From contig CM037864.1 of the NCBI GenBank assembly GCA_021292105.1, positions 12,943,898-13,007,897 on the forward strand: 64,000 nucleotides of DNA. Direction: 5' to 3'. Position 1 is the stretch's first letter, and each line of letters begins with the position of its first letter. Origin of the DNA: Anadara kagoshimensis. Its lineage: Eukaryota; Mollusca; Bivalvia; Arcoida; Arcidae. The notes under the pieces were generated by a model. It saw only the letters and a list, made by a program, of their open reading frames with translations, searched no databases and was not told where the DNA came from. Below, in pieces: positions 2,922 through 54,801 of this stretch. A program made the position numbers and the translations under genes.

Positions 2922-3003
<82 letters not shown>
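2922..3003. repeat. (CA)n(GA)n microsatellite
   Basis: Compound microsatellite, about 33 bases of CA then about 48 of GA, inside duplication copy A. Reading frames through it are artefacts. Confidence 0.98.
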
Positions 3004-5408: not shown

Positions 5409-5935
5409 ATACATACCTTTGAAAAGCAAACTGAACTGACAAACTTTCTTTCACATTAGAATCTGCAAGGAATGATTATTACATATGCAGCAATAGGCCA
5501 TATGAGCAAACTGTCTCACACCAGTGTCCGTTCCAAGTGGGATTCGTAACAAGGTGGTGAGAGGCGTTGTAGTTCGTAAAGGCGCGCTTTTGAACATTTG
5601 ACAACCGAGACCCCTAAATGCGTCTAAGATTTGATCATACAGTTTGGTTTCAATGAGATGTGATCCATGCGCATGTGTCATGCGATGCTTCTTTGCTTCT
5701 GTAAGTGTATGCGGAATGTTCGTCATACGACATTTCTTTGATTTGTATGCAGAATGTTATTGAACATGTACCACCGCATATTATAGTAATCGTCTTACAT
5801 TAACGGGAAATTACTTTAATATGACCCCAAGCTAATGACAATATAATTCACAAGAATTTCACAATATTTACTAAAGATTGTTACAAGCAGAAACCAATTA
5901 TTATAAATTACATACTATATCAATTTTAATTTTAC

Positions 5936-5981
5936 AGCAATAGACGACCGTTTCGGAGTACAATTCCTCATCAGTAGTGTT
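5936..5981 (-). ncRNA. hammerhead ribozyme, opposite strand, slightly decayed
   Basis: The same 46-base layout read on the minus strand: CTGATGA (5974-5968), GAA and a GTC cleavage triplet are intact and stem III is ACGGTCGT. Stem I (AACACTA/TATTGCT) has two mismatches and stem II (GGAAT/ACTCC) has one. It is probably weak or inactive alone. Confidence 0.75.
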
Positions 5982-7157
5982 TGGACCAAAATTGTGAAAC
6001 CAAAATATATTTTAAGATGTTAAAAAGATACTCAAAGGACCAAATATAGTATACTAAAATTAGCTAAGGGAATACTTTATATGAGGGAGTATACCTGAAT
6101 TTTTGAGGAATTTAGATTTAAATTATTATCCAAAAAATATGAGTCTTTGATTGTGGTCATTGTTTTGTTGGAGTCTTTAAGGGGAAAGTTTTCGTTATTA
6201 ATCGTACCCTCATGTACTTGTCAACATTTTTCCGGAAAAAACTTCTCTTTGAAGGAACTTTTTGATGCGCAATTTTCCTAAAAAGTTATAGCGGTCACAG
6301 ATATAGGTTGTGTGAAAGGTCATCGAGAAATCCACGAATTATTTCGATGGTTGATGTCCATAGAAAGGAGTAGATGAGTATTGAATTGACGTCATTAAGA
6401 AACCTCTTAGTTCATACAAACAAAGGAAATGGTCCTCAGTTATTTAAGGTTTTTAATTAAAACACGCTTCCTCATTTCATTTAGTTATAACACTATATTC
6501 AAACAAACAATCCTACAAACAAAGGAAATGGTCGTCAGTTATTTAAGGTTTTTTAAAAACACGCTTCCTTATTTCATTATGTTATAAAACTGTATTCTAA
6601 TTAATATTTAGCAGTTTGTACCATCTGTAAAACAAGGATGGCTCAATTAATATATTATGAAATCTAAGTGAACACGAACTTGTTCTTAGAATACTTACGT
6701 GTTATTTTCGTTGATCATCATTGTCTTTCCATATCATTATTGTCTCTTATTCTTTCTTTATATCGTTTAGGTTTTATAAAAAGTGTGTTTTAACAATGCC
6801 GATTGGCAAAAGTTTATAAAATGAATATTTATGCAATTTATATCAGTATGTTGGTTGAAATCTTCTTTGTTTATATAACATTGAGTTGTGAACAGACGAC
6901 TATGACAATTTCATGTAAAATAATTCTTTTAATTCTTTTGCCTCAAATAGGAAAAGGGATTCCAAATAAGAGTAAAAAAAATAATCCCATATAGAGATAA
7001 AAAAATGCCAGAATGGTGGTTCATATTTTCTTGAACCAAATGTTGACATTATGTGTTAAGCAATTACTGGTTGTAAAAATGTAGGAATGTAAAACACTTA
7101 AAATGTACTTACCCAACACTACTGGTAACTTTTTTTAGCATATATACAATGTCGAAT

Positions 7158-7376
7158 TTGGTATATATTTGACGTCTCATAGTTCCATGTTCCTTTCACA
7201 CAATTTTGATTACACACGTGGCGGGTGTAGCTAGCTAAACAGGAGGCGCTTTCCCTTACGGAGCACACGGCCTCACTTCCATGGTGGAAGTTCAAATGTC
7301 TAAGCTAACTTGTCAGTTCCAAAGTTTTTACTTTGCTTCTGGGTTGTGATTCAGACATGGATTATTATGTTTGTTT
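7158..7376 (-). mobile_element. R1 element
   Basis: R1 in reverse orientation inside the hammerhead-flanked block, including the downstream module TAGCTAGCTACACCCGC, CACGTGTGTAATC and GGAACATGGAACTATG in complement. Confidence 0.85.
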
Positions 7377-7554
7377 TGAGTATCTTATATCATTGTCTAA
7401 ATTCCCTGCAAGTTAAAATTTGAAATTTCTCAAAAACTAAGGTATACTCCCTCATGCAAAGTATTTCCTTGCTTAATTTGGTAAAATATATTTTGGTCCT
7501 TTGGGAAGCTTTTCAACATCTTCAAAATAATTTTGGTTTCATAATTTTGGTCCA

Positions 7555-7600
7555 AGCACTACTGATGAGGAATTGTATTCCGAAACGGCCGTCTAGTGCT
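7555..7600 (+). ncRNA. hammerhead ribozyme (complete core, type I)
   Basis: A 46-base hammerhead. Stem I is AGCACTA (7555-7561) with TAGTGCT (7594-7600), 7 of 7 paired. The core CTGATGA is at 7562-7568. Stem II is GGAAT/ATTCC around TGT (7569-7581). The core GAA is at 7582-7584. Stem III is ACGGCCGT (7585-7592), a short 3-4 bp helix, followed by C at 7593, so the cleavage site is GTC and cleavage would fall after 7593. All invariant positions are present. The very short stem III resembles type I hammerheads known in Penelope-like elements and animal retrozymes, which usually act as dimers. Activity is inferred. Confidence 0.85.
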
Positions 7601-7981
7601 GTAAAATTAAAACTGGTATAATATGTAATTATAATAAGCGGTTGCCTTCGTGTTTTACCTTTGCTATATTTATATAAAGTCTTGATTTTGTACTTTATTT
7701 GTTATTTCTTGAACTTAGTCCCTCTTTCTTTTGTGAAGTATACGTTTATAAAACTGCACTGGAACGGTTGTTGGAAATATAAGAGTTACTGACCTTAAAA
7801 CCAAGTAAGAAAAAACCAAAAGGCTTTAAGATTGATTGTATGAAATATTTTCTAGTTTTCGAAAAATAAATTCGGTACTTTTTTCAGTCGTTTTTGATTT
7901 AAAAAAGCAACGGTTTTTGCAGAAACGATAGTGTGTATGACTTATTTGCAACAATTAGTCAGATTTTATGGTATCATCAAA

Positions 7982-8203
7982 TAACAAACATACAATTCCA
8001 TGTCGAAACCAAAATCCAAAAGCAAAATAAAAACTTTGAACCTAGCTAAACACGTGAACTTCCACCAAAGGAGTGAGGCCGGGTGCTCCGGAAAGATAAT
8101 TACCTCCAGTTCAGCTAGCTATGCCACGTGTGTAATCACATTTGGGAATGAAAAGAACATGGGACTATGTATGAAACGTAAAATATATCCAGATGTTTAT
8201 CTT
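7982..8203 (+). mobile_element. R1 element
   Basis: R1 in sense orientation with AAGCAAAATAAAAACTTTGA and GGTGCTCCGGAAAG. It ends near AAAATATATCCAGATG, next to duplication copy B. Confidence 0.85.

Positions 8204-9965: not shown

Positions 9966-10059
<94 letters not shown>
9966..10059. repeat. (CA)n(GA)n microsatellite
   Basis: The paralogous compound microsatellite in duplication copy B, longer than that in copy A. Confidence 0.98.
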
Positions 10060-28930: not shown

Positions 28931-29127
28931 CTAAGGTATATTCCCCTCATGCAAAGTATTTCCTCAGCTACATTAGGCTCAATATAAATGGGTTCTTTGG
29001 GTCCTTTTCGACATCTTGAAAAAATTTTGGTTTCACAATTTTGGCCCAAGCACTTCTGATAAGAAAATGTATTCCGAAACGGCCGTCTAATGCTGTAAAT
29101 AATTACTGGAATAATATGTAATTATCA
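28931..29127 (+). mobile_element. solo hammerhead repeat
   Basis: A single roughly 200-bp repeat matching 7434-7632, from GCTAAGGTATA to ATAATATGTAATTATC, with the decayed hammerhead inside. It lies directly next to an ATT microsatellite on the left and a 109-bp tandem array on the right. Confidence 0.65.
29049..29094 (+). ncRNA. degenerate hammerhead ribozyme copy
   Basis: Aligns base for base with the copy at 7555-7600, but the core reads CTGATAA and stem II is broken (GAAAA/ATTCC). The GAA-ACGGCCGT-C segment is intact. It is expected to be inactive. It sits in a repeat (28931-29127) homologous to the other hammerhead repeats. Confidence 0.7.
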
Positions 29128-29134
29128 GTATCCT

Positions 29135-29560
29135 GTTTTAGTGACCGACTAGATGAACATCTCCAACAAAACCAGTCTTTTCGGTTTCAAAATGTGTTAA
29201 ATGGATATGGTCAATCAAATATGTATGTTATTATCGGCATTCCGTTTTGGTGACCGATTAGATGAACATCTCCAAAGAAACCAGTCTTTTCGGTTTCAAA
29301 ATGTGTTAAATGGATATGGTCAATCAAATATGTATGTAATTATCGGCATTCCGTTTTGGTGACCGACTAGATGAACATCTCCAACAAAACCAGTCTTTTT
29401 CGGTTTCAAAATGTGTTAAATGGATATGGTCAATCAAATATGTATGTTATTATCGGCATTCCGTTTTGGTGACCGACTAGATAAACATCTCTAACGAAAC
29501 CAGTCTTTTAGGTTTCAAAATTAGTTAAATGGATCTGGTCCATCAAAATTATCTTTTTAT
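29135..29560. repeat. 109-bp tandem array, four units
   Basis: GTGACCGACTAGATGAACAT starts near 29141, 29249, 29359 and 29470. Units share TTTCGGTTTCAAAATGTG and ATATGGTCAATCAAATATG, and the middle copies are almost identical. It lies just downstream of the FMRFamide gene. Single diverged units occur near 23565 and 60560. Confidence 0.92.
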
Positions 29561-29957: not shown

Positions 29958-31211
29958 TTATTTTCCAAATCTCATGAATCTTTTGTCTTTTGAATCACGG
30001 CCGAATCTCATGAAACGTTTATCGTCTGTACTTTTTCCAAATCGCATAAATCGCTTATCGTCTGATTTCTTTCCGAACCGCATAAATCGTTTCTCTGCCT
30101 CATCCGGGTCTCTACCAAATCTCATAAAGCGTTTCTCATCATCTATACTTTTGCCAAATCTCATGAACCGTTTCTCGTCACCACTTTTTCCGAATCTCAT
30201 GAATCTTTTTTCTTGTTCATTTGTGTCCACACTTTTTCCGAATCTCATGAATTTTTTCTTGTTCATTTGTGTCCACACTTTTTCCGAATCTCATGAATCT
30301 CTTCTCTGGATCACGACCGAATCGCATGAATCTTTTCTCGTCCTCAACGCTTTTTCCAAATCGCATAAACCGTTTTTCGTCTTCGCCGGATCTACCGAAA
30401 CGCATAAATCTTTTGTCTTCTGGTGCAAATGTGTCATCTTCTTCTTCATCATCGCCATCTCGCTTTCCAAATCTCATGAACCGTTTCTCTTCCTCAACTG
30501 GATCCCGTCCAAATCGCATGAAACGCTTCTCTTCTTTTCCATCTTTTCCGAATCTCATGAATCTTTTTCCGAAGCGCATAAATCTCTTTTCATCATCATT
30601 TCCTATGGATTTTCCGAACCTCATAAACCGTTTCTCATCGTCAATAGATTTTCCGAATCGCATAAATCGCTTATCAGCTTCACCAGATTTTCCGAATCTC
30701 ATGAATCGTTTTTCGTCATCAATTGATTTTCCGAATCGCATAAATCGCTTTTCTGCCTCATCACTTTCGTCACTTCCGGGATCTCTGCCAAACCTCATGA
30801 ACCTTTTCTCGGCTTTTTCATCGTCGTTTGTTTCTCTTTTCTTTATTTCGGCATTTTTTGATGTTTCGTTTGGTACGATTGTTTCTTTCTGATCGTCTTT
30901 AATTGCGCGTTTTTCTGGGACATCTTTTACTGGCACGATTTCGTCTGTTGATCTCCGTTTTCGTATTTTTATTCCGGCTTTTTCAGCTGCATCAATTCGG
31001 TTTGCAACTTGTCTGAGCATGTCAGCGGTACTGTCGTCACTTCCGCTTCTGCCGAATCGTAGAAATCGTTTGTCCTCGTTCTGATAGGAATTTCTGCCAA
31101 ATCTTAGAAATCCTTCTTTATTGCCGAATCTTTTTCCAAATCTTAAGAATCCGTCGCCACTCAAAGCTCTTTTGCCAAATCGTAAAAACGTTCTTTTGCT
31201 TTTGTCGTCAT
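29958..31211 (-). CDS. FMRFamide precursor, peptide exon (with internal frameshift)
   Basis: Large terminal exon of a mollusc-type FMRFamide prohormone. Just after the acceptor come [33 protein letters not shown] and KRFLRFGR, then an acidic spacer with dibasic sites (IRKR, PEKR, IKKR). After the spacer lie 13 in-frame FMRFGK/FMRFGR units separated by acidic linkers such as [15 protein letters not shown] and SVEDEKR. The KR sites, the Gly amide donor and the acidic spacers are typical of prohormones cut by convertases and amidated in dense-core vesicles of neurons. A 2-bp loss near 30252 shifts the frame to a TGA at 30217-30219. In the shifted frame 8 more FMRF units continue to a TAA at 29958, ending RFMRFGK. 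As written, the product is 376 residues; without the loss it would be 463. The persistence of the downstream coding pattern suggests a recent or artefactual lesion. Readings on the opposite strand are antisense shadows. Confidence 0.97.
30183..30276 (-). repeat. tandem 48-bp FMRF unit duplication
   Basis: Two adjacent copies of a 16-codon unit (linker SVDTNEQEK plus RFMRFGK), identical except for the 2-bp loss in the first-translated copy. This is the youngest-looking expansion within the precursor; other units differ more in their linkers. Confidence 0.9.
30249..30258 (-). other. 2-bp deletion frameshift in FMRFamide exon
   Basis: Two adjacent units encoding SVDTNEQEK(R)FMRFGK are otherwise identical. 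One (30183-30230) reads GAATC, six T, then CTTG on the plus strand. The other (30229-30276) reads GAA, six T, then CTTG, two bases shorter beside a T run. The coding strand therefore changes from EKRF to EKIH and stops 9 codons later. It could be a real allele, a recent pseudogenising change, or a sequencing/assembly error in a short tandem duplication. Confidence 0.9.
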
Positions 31212-31414
31212 CTACAAAATACAAAACAACAACAATATTACAGACATGTTAATAGCTATGGATGGTCCTTTGTGGATATGTGTTGCCAATTTTCATTTTA
31301 CCATCATATATAAAAGTTAGATAAACATCGATAAAATGCAATAAATCTTCAATGTGTCTGCGTGATGAATTACTAGTACATGTAATTTCATTGACCGATA
31401 AGTACATTTTTAAT

Positions 31415-52830: not shown

Positions 52831-53212
52831 CATAGTTTCCAAGTCAAAGGAGAGAAGCTACATTGCTTTCTCGTACCGTCTGACGCACTGTCATACACTT
52901 GGATATGCTTGAGAAATTTTAACGTAGGCGATGAATAACAATGTTATCCGTATGCGGCGCTTTAGTCAAGTCAGCCTCCGTCCAAGCTCTAACGTATTGG
53001 AAAATTTATTTCGCTTAGGTAAATTGAAGATCCCATAGTAACCCACCGCTTAGATGAACATCGCAAATAAAGCCCAGGTTTGTACGTTACTTGGTTTTAT
53101 TTTATGATTGGCCGTTGTTCATTGAACAGCTTTCAAAACCATAAAATTTTGAAAAATATATTTCTGGCCCTCTATTTTCAACATTTTATAGATCTATTTA
53201 ATTAACATTCGG

Positions 53213-53502
53213 TGGAAGCGCGTGGCCTAGTGGTTAAGGCGTTGGACTCATGATTCGAAGGTCGTGGGTTCGATCCCTGGACCGGGCGATGTGTTGTGTC
53301 CTTGAGCAAGACACTTAATTCCACGTTGTTCCAGTTCACTCAGCTGAAAAATAAATGAGCAAAATGCTGGGGGTTAACCCTGCGATGGACCGGCGTCCCA
53401 TTCAGGGGAGAGTCTTGTACTCTCAGTCGCTTAACGCCACCGAAACCGGGATAAGCTCCGGCCTGATGGGCCTAATGGCTCGGGACAGACTTTAACTTTT
53501 TA
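53213..53502 (+). mobile_element. SINE-A, full length, with target-site duplication
   Basis: tRNA-derived SINE. A box TGGCCTAGTGG and B box GGGTTCGATCCC lie in the head, followed by the body (TCCTTGAGCAAGACACTTAA, GCTGGGGGTTAACCCTGC) and a T-rich end. A 13-bp direct repeat, AATTAACATTCGG, flanks it at 53200-53212 and 53503-53515. The head contains an ACTCATGA anticodon-loop-like stretch, but this is not a functional tRNA gene. Confidence 0.92.
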
Positions 53503-53536
53503 AATTAACATTCGGGATTTCCGCATTTTTTCCCCG

Positions 53537-53582
53537 AGCACTACTGATGATTAGTGCTATTCCGAAACGGACGTCTAGTGCT
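53537..53582 (+). ncRNA. degenerate hammerhead ribozyme copy
   Basis: Stem I (AGCACTA/TAGTGCT), CTGATGA, GAA, ACGGACGT and the C cleavage base are all present. The stem II 5' strand is replaced (TTAGTGCT before ATTCC), so no normal stem II forms. Only about 80 bases of the parent repeat remain, squeezed between a SINE-A and a MITE-G. Confidence 0.65.
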
Positions 53583-53601
53583 TCATAATTCAAACAGGTT
53601 T

Positions 53602-53814
53602 AATTGACGTATCGCTGGCCACGCCCACATTGTTCCGACAAAGGCCTGGCATGCTTGAATTAAACGCAAAAAGAATGAAATCGCGGCCTGAATTCCGCCG
53701 TTTAATGACGTTACGTCACTGACTAGCACGTCATTAGTAGCCGTGATGCTGCTCTGGTACCGTGAAGGCGGCCTTTGTCGGAACATTGTGGGCGTGGCCG
53801 GCGATCCGTCAATT
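53602..53814. mobile_element. MITE-G
   Basis: 213 bp, ends AATTGACGTATCGCTGGCCA and TGGCCGGCGATCCGTCAATT. The interior shares TTTAATGACGTT/AACGTCATT-type modules with the copy at 28016, in opposite orientation. Confidence 0.9.
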
Positions 53815-54801
53815 ACGCCATATTATAATTTTTTTTAATATTCTGAAAAATAATAATATGACAACGTCCGTATTTTTTTTCTCGAAAATTCAAAAAATGA
53901 TAATGTAATTTTAAGTAACAATAAGATAAGAAAGGCAACTTAAAACACCCAACAGCTCTGAAGTATTGTATTTGAGCTTTAGTGCTCGCATGCAATCATG
54001 TCCTATTATTGCAATCTCTACAATATCATCAATATTTCTTAAAATGTTATCATTTTTGCGAATCAAAAAGAGCTCTCACAATGGAATGTTTGTGTAACAA
54101 GGTTAGAAACTCTCATAAATATCACAATTGCATCATAGAAGGCCAAAACATAAAGCCGTTAAGGCAATGTACAGTAAGCGAATGTGTATAAATTAAATAA
54201 AGATTGCAATACCAATGACCTAGGACAATAGTTAGCCAGACATGGTATTACAATTGATTTTAATATCGTTTCATGTTATTCATTGTTAGTGCAGTTTTAT
54301 ATATATTATATGCAGTGTTACGTCGCGTTTTATGCCATTGATGTGCGAGAACCGAACAAAGTCGCGGCCATTTATCATTTTTTCTTTACGACGTAAATAA
54401 TATTACCGTTAAACTTAATATAACAACATAATCGTATAAAAGCCGTTACATGTTTGGTTTATATCTAAATTGAATTTAACATTGTCCAGTGTAATGTTTG
54501 GCAAGAGAGGGAGTTTTAGCAAAGTCAGACAATTCAGTCGGGACCTCCAATCGTGAAATGGCGTAGTTTGTAGCTGAATAACACGAACTTTGCTCTTCGT
54601 ATTGTAACCAAGAATCACTAAGGCAAACTTTTTTTAAAAATATTTTTGTAGCGTTATATTTGGCAAAGAGTTTTAATACTTGTATAGTTTGAACAATTAT
54701 CTTGTGACTAAGTACTAGAATTATGAAATATTGTACTTGGTAGGCGGTTACTTATACTACTATTACTGCTTCTTCTACTACTACTACTACTACTACTTCT
54801 G

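Follow-up and report, generated by a model that had tools for sequence, protein, structure and literature searches.

The window, by which we mean the whole 64,000-nucleotide (nt) stretch of Anadara kagoshimensis DNA that was analyzed, holds an insert bearing a hammerhead ribozyme sequence and three decayed relatives of that insert. It also contains a gene for an FMRFamide precursor at 30217 to 31248 on the minus strand (Pfam FARP, E = 1.1e-26), which carries a decapeptide and many FMRF repeats; related molluscan decapeptides include ALAGDGFLRFa in Lottia and ALSGDAFLRFa in Sepia (excerpts of PMC4208409), so that the gene by itself points to a probable molluscan host. The features of the insert and its relatives are as follows.

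7388..7630, plus strand: retrozyme insert, one 5'-truncated copy of ~243 bp ending in ...GTAATT (alignment to the monomer of locus L010; 3' end as in 33 of 37 distinct inserts)
7555..7600, plus strand: predicted type I hammerhead ribozyme with all core positions (pairing count; 2030 exact genome copies)
7555..7561, plus strand: 5' strand of stem I, AGCACTA, 7 bp with 7594-7600 (pairing count)
7562..7568, plus strand: core CTGATGA (sequence reading)
7569..7581, plus strand: stem II, GGAAT/ATTCC, 5 bp, with loop TGT (pairing count)
7582..7584, plus strand: core GAA (sequence reading)
7585..7592, plus strand: stem III palindrome ACGGCCGT, 2 bp intramolecular and 8 bp intermolecular (folding and pairing count)
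7593..7594, plus strand: predicted cut, after C7593 (follows from the hammerhead scheme)
7594..7630, plus strand: 37-nt tail, from the cut to the common 3' end of inserts (insert alignments)
5906..6122, minus strand: second, decayed copy, with a hammerhead relic at 5936-5981 (11/14 pairs; alignment and pairing count)
28931..29123, plus strand: third, decayed copy, with a hammerhead relic at 29049-29094 (10/14 pairs, core G8 lost; alignment and pairing count)
53514..53597, plus strand: part of an older related copy, with a hammerhead relic at 53537-53582 (12/14 pairs; alignment and pairing count), split upstream by a tRNA-type SINE

The 5' boundary of the window insert is approximate, and its alignment to the L010 monomer was counted to 7634, including ATAA.

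The sequence from 7555 to 7600 reads AGCACTA CTGATGA GGAAT TGT ATTCC GAA ACGGCCGT C TAGTGCT. Every core base is present, along with A15.1 and U16.1, in a type I arrangement, and 14 of 14 pairs form when stem III is counted as 2 bp closed by a GGCC loop. The original prediction placed all catalytic positions and three stems within these 46 bases, which the complete core and full set of pairs bear out; its 7-bp stem I, CTGATGA, 5-bp stem II, GAA, and putative cleavage position at C7593 can likewise all be read there. The 3- to 4-bp stem III that it proposed must be revised, in that ACGGCCGT is a perfect 8-base palindrome and therefore closes only 2 bp within one molecule and 8 bp between two. 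The 46-base hammerhead is complete in sequence, and self-cleavage is predicted.

A relaxed hammerhead descriptor (stem I of at least 4 bp, stem II of at least 3 bp, and stem III of at least 2 bp) matched the whole window only once, at this same site. When 100 first-order Markov windows with matching composition were searched on both strands, the descriptor matched twice, neither time with stems as good. Across the 36 contigs of the 1.115-Gb assembly, there are 2030 exact matches to the 46-mer (1070 on one strand and 960 on the other), and 9638 places match it with three or fewer mismatches (4871 and 4767 by strand); the reversed control gave 0 in both searches. The Markov controls and the 2030 copies, against none of the reversed control, uphold the earlier view that a chance origin is very unlikely, and a chance origin of the hammerhead is excluded. 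Two loose-pattern matches in viral and prokaryotic collections align to the window only in the pattern itself and were taken as chance, and two stricter pattern scans, one of genome contigs and one of viral contigs, detected no relatives.

The covariance models of Rfam 15 gave no hammerhead match at the gathering score either in the window or in eight loci of the family, and none up to E = 10 in positions 7450 to 7700. The original prediction had staked itself on such a match, which failed to appear. We read its absence as a limit of the test, which involved no positive control for short type I hammerheads, rather than as a refutation.

For the lone 46-mer, the minimum-energy fold is not the hammerhead (-12.3 versus -7.8 kcal/mol), and in a 66-base context, the two stem III pairs have probabilities of 0.001 or less. 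With two molecules, the fold of lowest energy (-34.5 kcal/mol) is precisely the double hammerhead; the energy gained on dimerization is matched by 70 of 300 shuffles, and the two-molecule folds of the three other window copies are not double hammerheads. These results suggest, without proving, that the hammerhead would work better in pairs. The notion of a highly structured monomer circle was rejected, the circular fold having no extra stability relative to 60 shuffles (z = -0.45).

The three other copies that had been anticipated in the window all exist (5936-5981, 29049-29094, and 53537-53582), but none is intact, with 11, 10, and 12 of 14 pairs, respectively. In the copy at 53537-53582, TAGTGCT in the stem II region repeats the 3' strand of stem I and would form a rival hairpin with AGCACTA. 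Since the nearest relative lies ~1.6 kb away on the other strand and the window insert is solo, this locus alone cannot give unit-length circles; by itself, the window insert could do no more than cut a host transcript, probably with low efficiency.

Elsewhere in the genome, the repeat occurs in head-to-tail arrays. Among the matches listed on contig C1, successive copies are separated by steps of 339 and 339 nt; 340, 340, and 337 nt; 344, 343, and 341 nt; and 354, 352, and 366 nt, and from C3:9334940, at least eight successive tails lie 338 or 339 nt apart. The tail motif has 6738 occurrences in the genome, at least 872 of which continue exactly into the next unit, this number being a lower bound since 10 further bases must match. 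The monomer from L010 has 339 bases and a G+C content of 34.2%. Processing of multimers to unit length, as originally envisaged for this repeat, could thus take place among tandem members elsewhere, but not at the window copy, which is solo and 5' truncated. The copies and arrays found genome-wide agree with the assignment to an interspersed animal repeat of the retrozyme type that carries a type I hammerhead whose stem III is minimal.

Animal non-LTR retrozymes, as described in excerpts of PMC7229834, have type I hammerheads, tandem units of 150 to 450 bp, and circular RNA, and they occur in coral, Mytilus galloprovincialis, and axolotl; the mussel has about 5000 hammerhead copies, and its retrozymes are mostly circular RNA. 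The Anadara family has a complete type I core, head-to-tail units within the 150- to 450-bp range (~339 bp), and a G+C content below 50% (34.2%). It resembles those retrozymes in its type I hammerhead, its tandem A+T-rich units, its thousands of copies, and the lack of any visible coding capacity, and, as in the mussel hammerheads, most of the usual loop-loop bases are absent (excerpts of PMC7229834). It differs from the retrozymes of that source in its host and sequence and in having a full 8-base palindrome as stem III. Weak stem III helices with a palindrome, for which better cutting is expected as a dimer, are also a feature of the satellite hammerheads of newts and salamanders (excerpts of PMC7229834 and PMC6155905), from which the present hammerhead is distinguished by 2 bp plus a full 8-base palindrome and by another sequence and another host. 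Its sequence features agree with those of the animal non-LTR retrozymes already described, and the family is most suitably classed as a new member of that group. We assign a probability of roughly 0.7 to the reading that the window holds a type I hammerhead carried by a non-coding, non-autonomous retroelement of the animal retrozyme type, with a cycle passing through units, circles, and an internal start of cDNA synthesis.

The ends of the inserts bear on how such an element would return to DNA. In a first set of 30 loci, ranked by a window query that included bases past the 3' end, a common 3' end and the sequence TTATAA are at least partly a selection effect, because the ranking query included those bases; the family was therefore resampled by the exact hammerhead alone. 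This second sample comprised the first 40 of 72 clusters from the 91 places listed on C1 and contained 41 inserts, four of which (L056, L057, L069, and L071) duplicate sampled loci and are left out of the end counts. The 3' end falls within 3 nt of the ...GTAATT end in 36 of 41 inserts and in 33 of the 37 distinct ones, the four distinct exceptions being L034 plus, L039, L042, and L054. This common end lies 37 nt downstream of the predicted cut. The 5' ends of the 37 distinct inserts are scattered over monomer positions 27 to 329, and just one lies 2 nt or less from the cut (0.55 expected if uniform). Insert lengths range from 112 to ~1700 bp, with 11 of 37 exceeding one unit and the window copy among the shorter ones; L037 was counted as a hammerhead-bearing insert of ~298 bp with its 5' end near monomer position 46, and L046 was counted as ~404 bp.

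Target-primed reverse transcription that stops early is known to leave this signature of a fixed 3' end and variable 5' ends. Since the motif used for sampling straddles the cut, inserts ending before it could not be recovered here. The first base of a self-cut unit is the one after the cut, and synthesis from the common end would therefore reach the end of such a template in 37 nt; all sampled inserts instead continue past the cut, and their templates were therefore joined there, as either ligated circles or uncut multimers. The insert ends thus suggest copying back to DNA from circular or uncut RNA, with the cDNA beginning at an internal site on a template that is continuous across the cut.

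As a target site, TTATAA looked universal in the first 30 loci and is not general in the exact-hammerhead sample, and it was rejected. The flanks (25 bases on each side) have A+T contents of 0.68 and 0.71, versus 0.67 in the loci at large. Clear target-site duplications were not found among 33 exact-hammerhead inserts or 26 inserts of the first set. Short direct repeats at insert ends average 3.8 bases in the former sample versus 3.0 for re-paired flanks, a weak excess reached by 2 of 300 re-pairings, and show no excess in the latter, where 61 of 500 re-pairings reach the observed value. Apart from the unit itself, the inserts of both samples showed no terminal repeats. Compared with the animal non-LTR retrozymes in print, the present family is marked by a fixed 3' end of its inserts and by a lack of clear target-site duplications. 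Neither a fixed 3' end nor shared-variant arrays are reported in the excerpts of PMC7229834 or in the titles and abstracts listed by searches of open-licence papers, which is weak evidence of absence.

Some arrays carry variants that their units share. In L033, which has five full units, all 10 pairwise identities (0.985 to 0.994) are higher than that of the closest match in any other locus (0.976). Eight of its variant columns are common to all five units, 10 are confined to a single unit, and 1 is shared by a subset; six of the eight all-unit variants are rare elsewhere (2 to 5%), and the other two occur at 13% and 36%. The columns of L065 divide into 4 all-unit, 12 single-unit, and 0 subset variants, and its partial first unit is less alike (0.968 to 0.973). 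The columns of these two loci look as they would if a single template had been copied again and again and the units had then mutated individually, and the five L033 monomers with their common variants are as expected if one circle was copied repeatedly. The pattern is not universal: L027 has 25 subset columns, which mostly represent one ~24-nt deletion common to two units, and identity within the insert is above the mean between inserts in only 11 of 17 multi-piece inserts (means, 0.939 versus 0.932), several of which are, in our reading, chance neighbors of old copies. The 17 are what remained of 20 multi-piece inserts after removal of duplicates and of those without 60 shared bases, and the variant and identity counts omit L004, L007, L016, L028, L056, L057, L069, and L071.

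The cycle that we favor would begin with transcription of tandem copies into multimers, which would be cut into units by hammerheads that probably act in pairs, held together by the palindromic stem III. A host RNA ligase would close the units into circles, by analogy with published work on mussel and axolotl. A reverse transcriptase provided in trans, with the Penelope-like elements of this genome as a possible source, would then initiate cDNA on the putative circle at a constant internal site, 37 nt beyond the cut, and would stop after a partial round or after several; the window copy would be one such product, stopped after ~243 bp. We lean, at somewhat better than even odds, toward a single rolling-circle, target-primed reaction from a site 37 nt past the cut, with random stops, as the source of both solo inserts and homogeneous arrays.

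The chief competing account retains the same element but has the inserts copied from uncut multimeric transcripts of arrays, with the hammerhead dispensable for mobility and cutting serving another step or none. The data require only a template joined across the cut, which uncut RNA satisfies, and transcription of an array that was homogeneous beforehand would give multimers whose copies share variants just as those from a circle do. In the Anolis Penelope-like element PAc, moreover, internal initiation was shown in vitro, hammerhead mutants still inserted, and unprocessed RNA was the main substrate (excerpts of PMC11167929). Homogeneous arrays nevertheless need an origin, which one circle copied repeatedly supplies in a single step, and retrozymes of this kind in the mussel are mostly circular RNA (excerpts of PMC7229834). 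We consider copying from uncut multimers unlikely relative to copying from circles.

The enzyme of the favored cycle would have to come from elsewhere. Penelope-like elements are reportedly equipped with minimal hammerheads in pseudo-LTRs, in work by Cervera and de la Pena from 2014 and Lunse et al. from 2017. The present family shares with them a minimal type I hammerhead, a tandem organization, and an internal start of reverse transcription (PAc; excerpts of PMC11167929). Unlike them, it has no reverse transcriptase or GIY-YIG domain in or beside the window copy, as judged from the 10 open reading frames (ORFs) of at least 70 amino acids nearest the four window copies. Among the candidates scored, GIY-YIG domains occur at 50 places in the genome, and at one of these loci (L078), a reverse-transcriptase ORF (RVT_1, E = 5.7e-10) is followed by a GIY-YIG ORF in another frame (E = 6.9e-8), which is the arrangement of Penelope-like elements. 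The retrozyme monomer shares no sequence with 12 GIY-YIG loci except for a separate retrozyme insert in L077.

Conservation of the motif varies with the copies compared. Between the window copy and the 53537 copy, the hammerhead outside stem II agrees at 32 of 33 positions, stem II agrees at 8 of 13, and the flanks agree at 54 of 94; over the whole motif, with flanks joined across the SINE, agreement is 40/46 versus 62/96 (P = 0.004). Against the two nearer copies, the corresponding values are 42/46 versus 126/158 (P = 0.05) and 41/46 versus 126/155 (P = 0.15). The motif is better conserved than its flanks relative to the older copy, and the excess is weak or absent relative to the two nearer ones. 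In the first set, the core is kept in 34 of 42 hammerhead-like 46-mers from 26 distinct loci (omitting L004, L007, L016, and L028 as duplicate or overlapping), in a set that was ranked by similarity to the window copy. A changed 10.2 base is accompanied by a matching A-T pair in 5 of the 100 copies listed (of 307), and a changed 10.3 base is accompanied by a new Watson-Crick pair in 2 of 71. Paired changes in stem II, counted here without a background rate, are few, and most copies seem to decay neutrally. That the repeat is merely decayed, keeping a hammerhead-like sequence by descent in an RNA that does not cut today, would accord with the missing Rfam match, the unfavorable lone fold, the mostly uncompensated decay of stem II pairs, and the breakage of three of the four window copies, but it is very improbable given 2030 exact copies with a complete core, retention of the core in the similarity-ranked first set, and a motif that has outlasted its flanks relative to the older copy, if not clearly relative to the two nearer ones.

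The return of retrozymes from RNA circles to chromosomes has so far been proposed in print, as target-primed copying of the circles with Penelope-like elements or LINEs as the source of the enzyme (excerpts of PMC7229834). The fixed 3' ends, scattered 5' ends, and at least one shared-variant array yield direct predictions of a start site, a template joined across the cut, and a size series, all of them open to testing in the genomes of related molluscs and with purified Penelope-like reverse transcriptase. If the favored reading is true, the genome would hold a readable record of retrozyme integration.

Several other repeats adjoin these copies. The hammerhead insert is flanked by inverted copies of a ~220-bp dispersed repeat (7163-7385 and 7983-8188), of which there are some 10 further copies or fragments in the window. 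The possibility that the hammerhead belongs to a 1-kb fold-back element with these inverted repeats was set aside, the arrangement being taken as accidental because both parts occur apart elsewhere in the window. Within the older retrozyme copy, a tRNA-derived SINE at 53214-53513 (tRNA match in Rfam, 53221-53284) is flanked on each side by the repeat aattaacattcgg, and an apparent MITE, recognized by eye from its inverted ends (taattgacg... and ...cgtcaatta), interrupts that copy at 53597-53815. Positions 7540-7650 and 53514-53610 both recur ~0.53 Mb away on the same contig (C8:12415350 and C8:12469661) with 100% and 97% identity, and one of the two recurrences has matching flanks (L004); they represent either a large segmental duplication or an assembly duplicate. 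A 109-bp tandem array of four copies (29115-29547) starts where the third retrozyme copy ends, and its motif GACCGACTAGATGAACATCTCCAA recurs near 53045, 23569, and 60564. Two compound (CA)n(AG)n microsatellites of near-identical makeup lie at 2922-3002 and 9967-10058.
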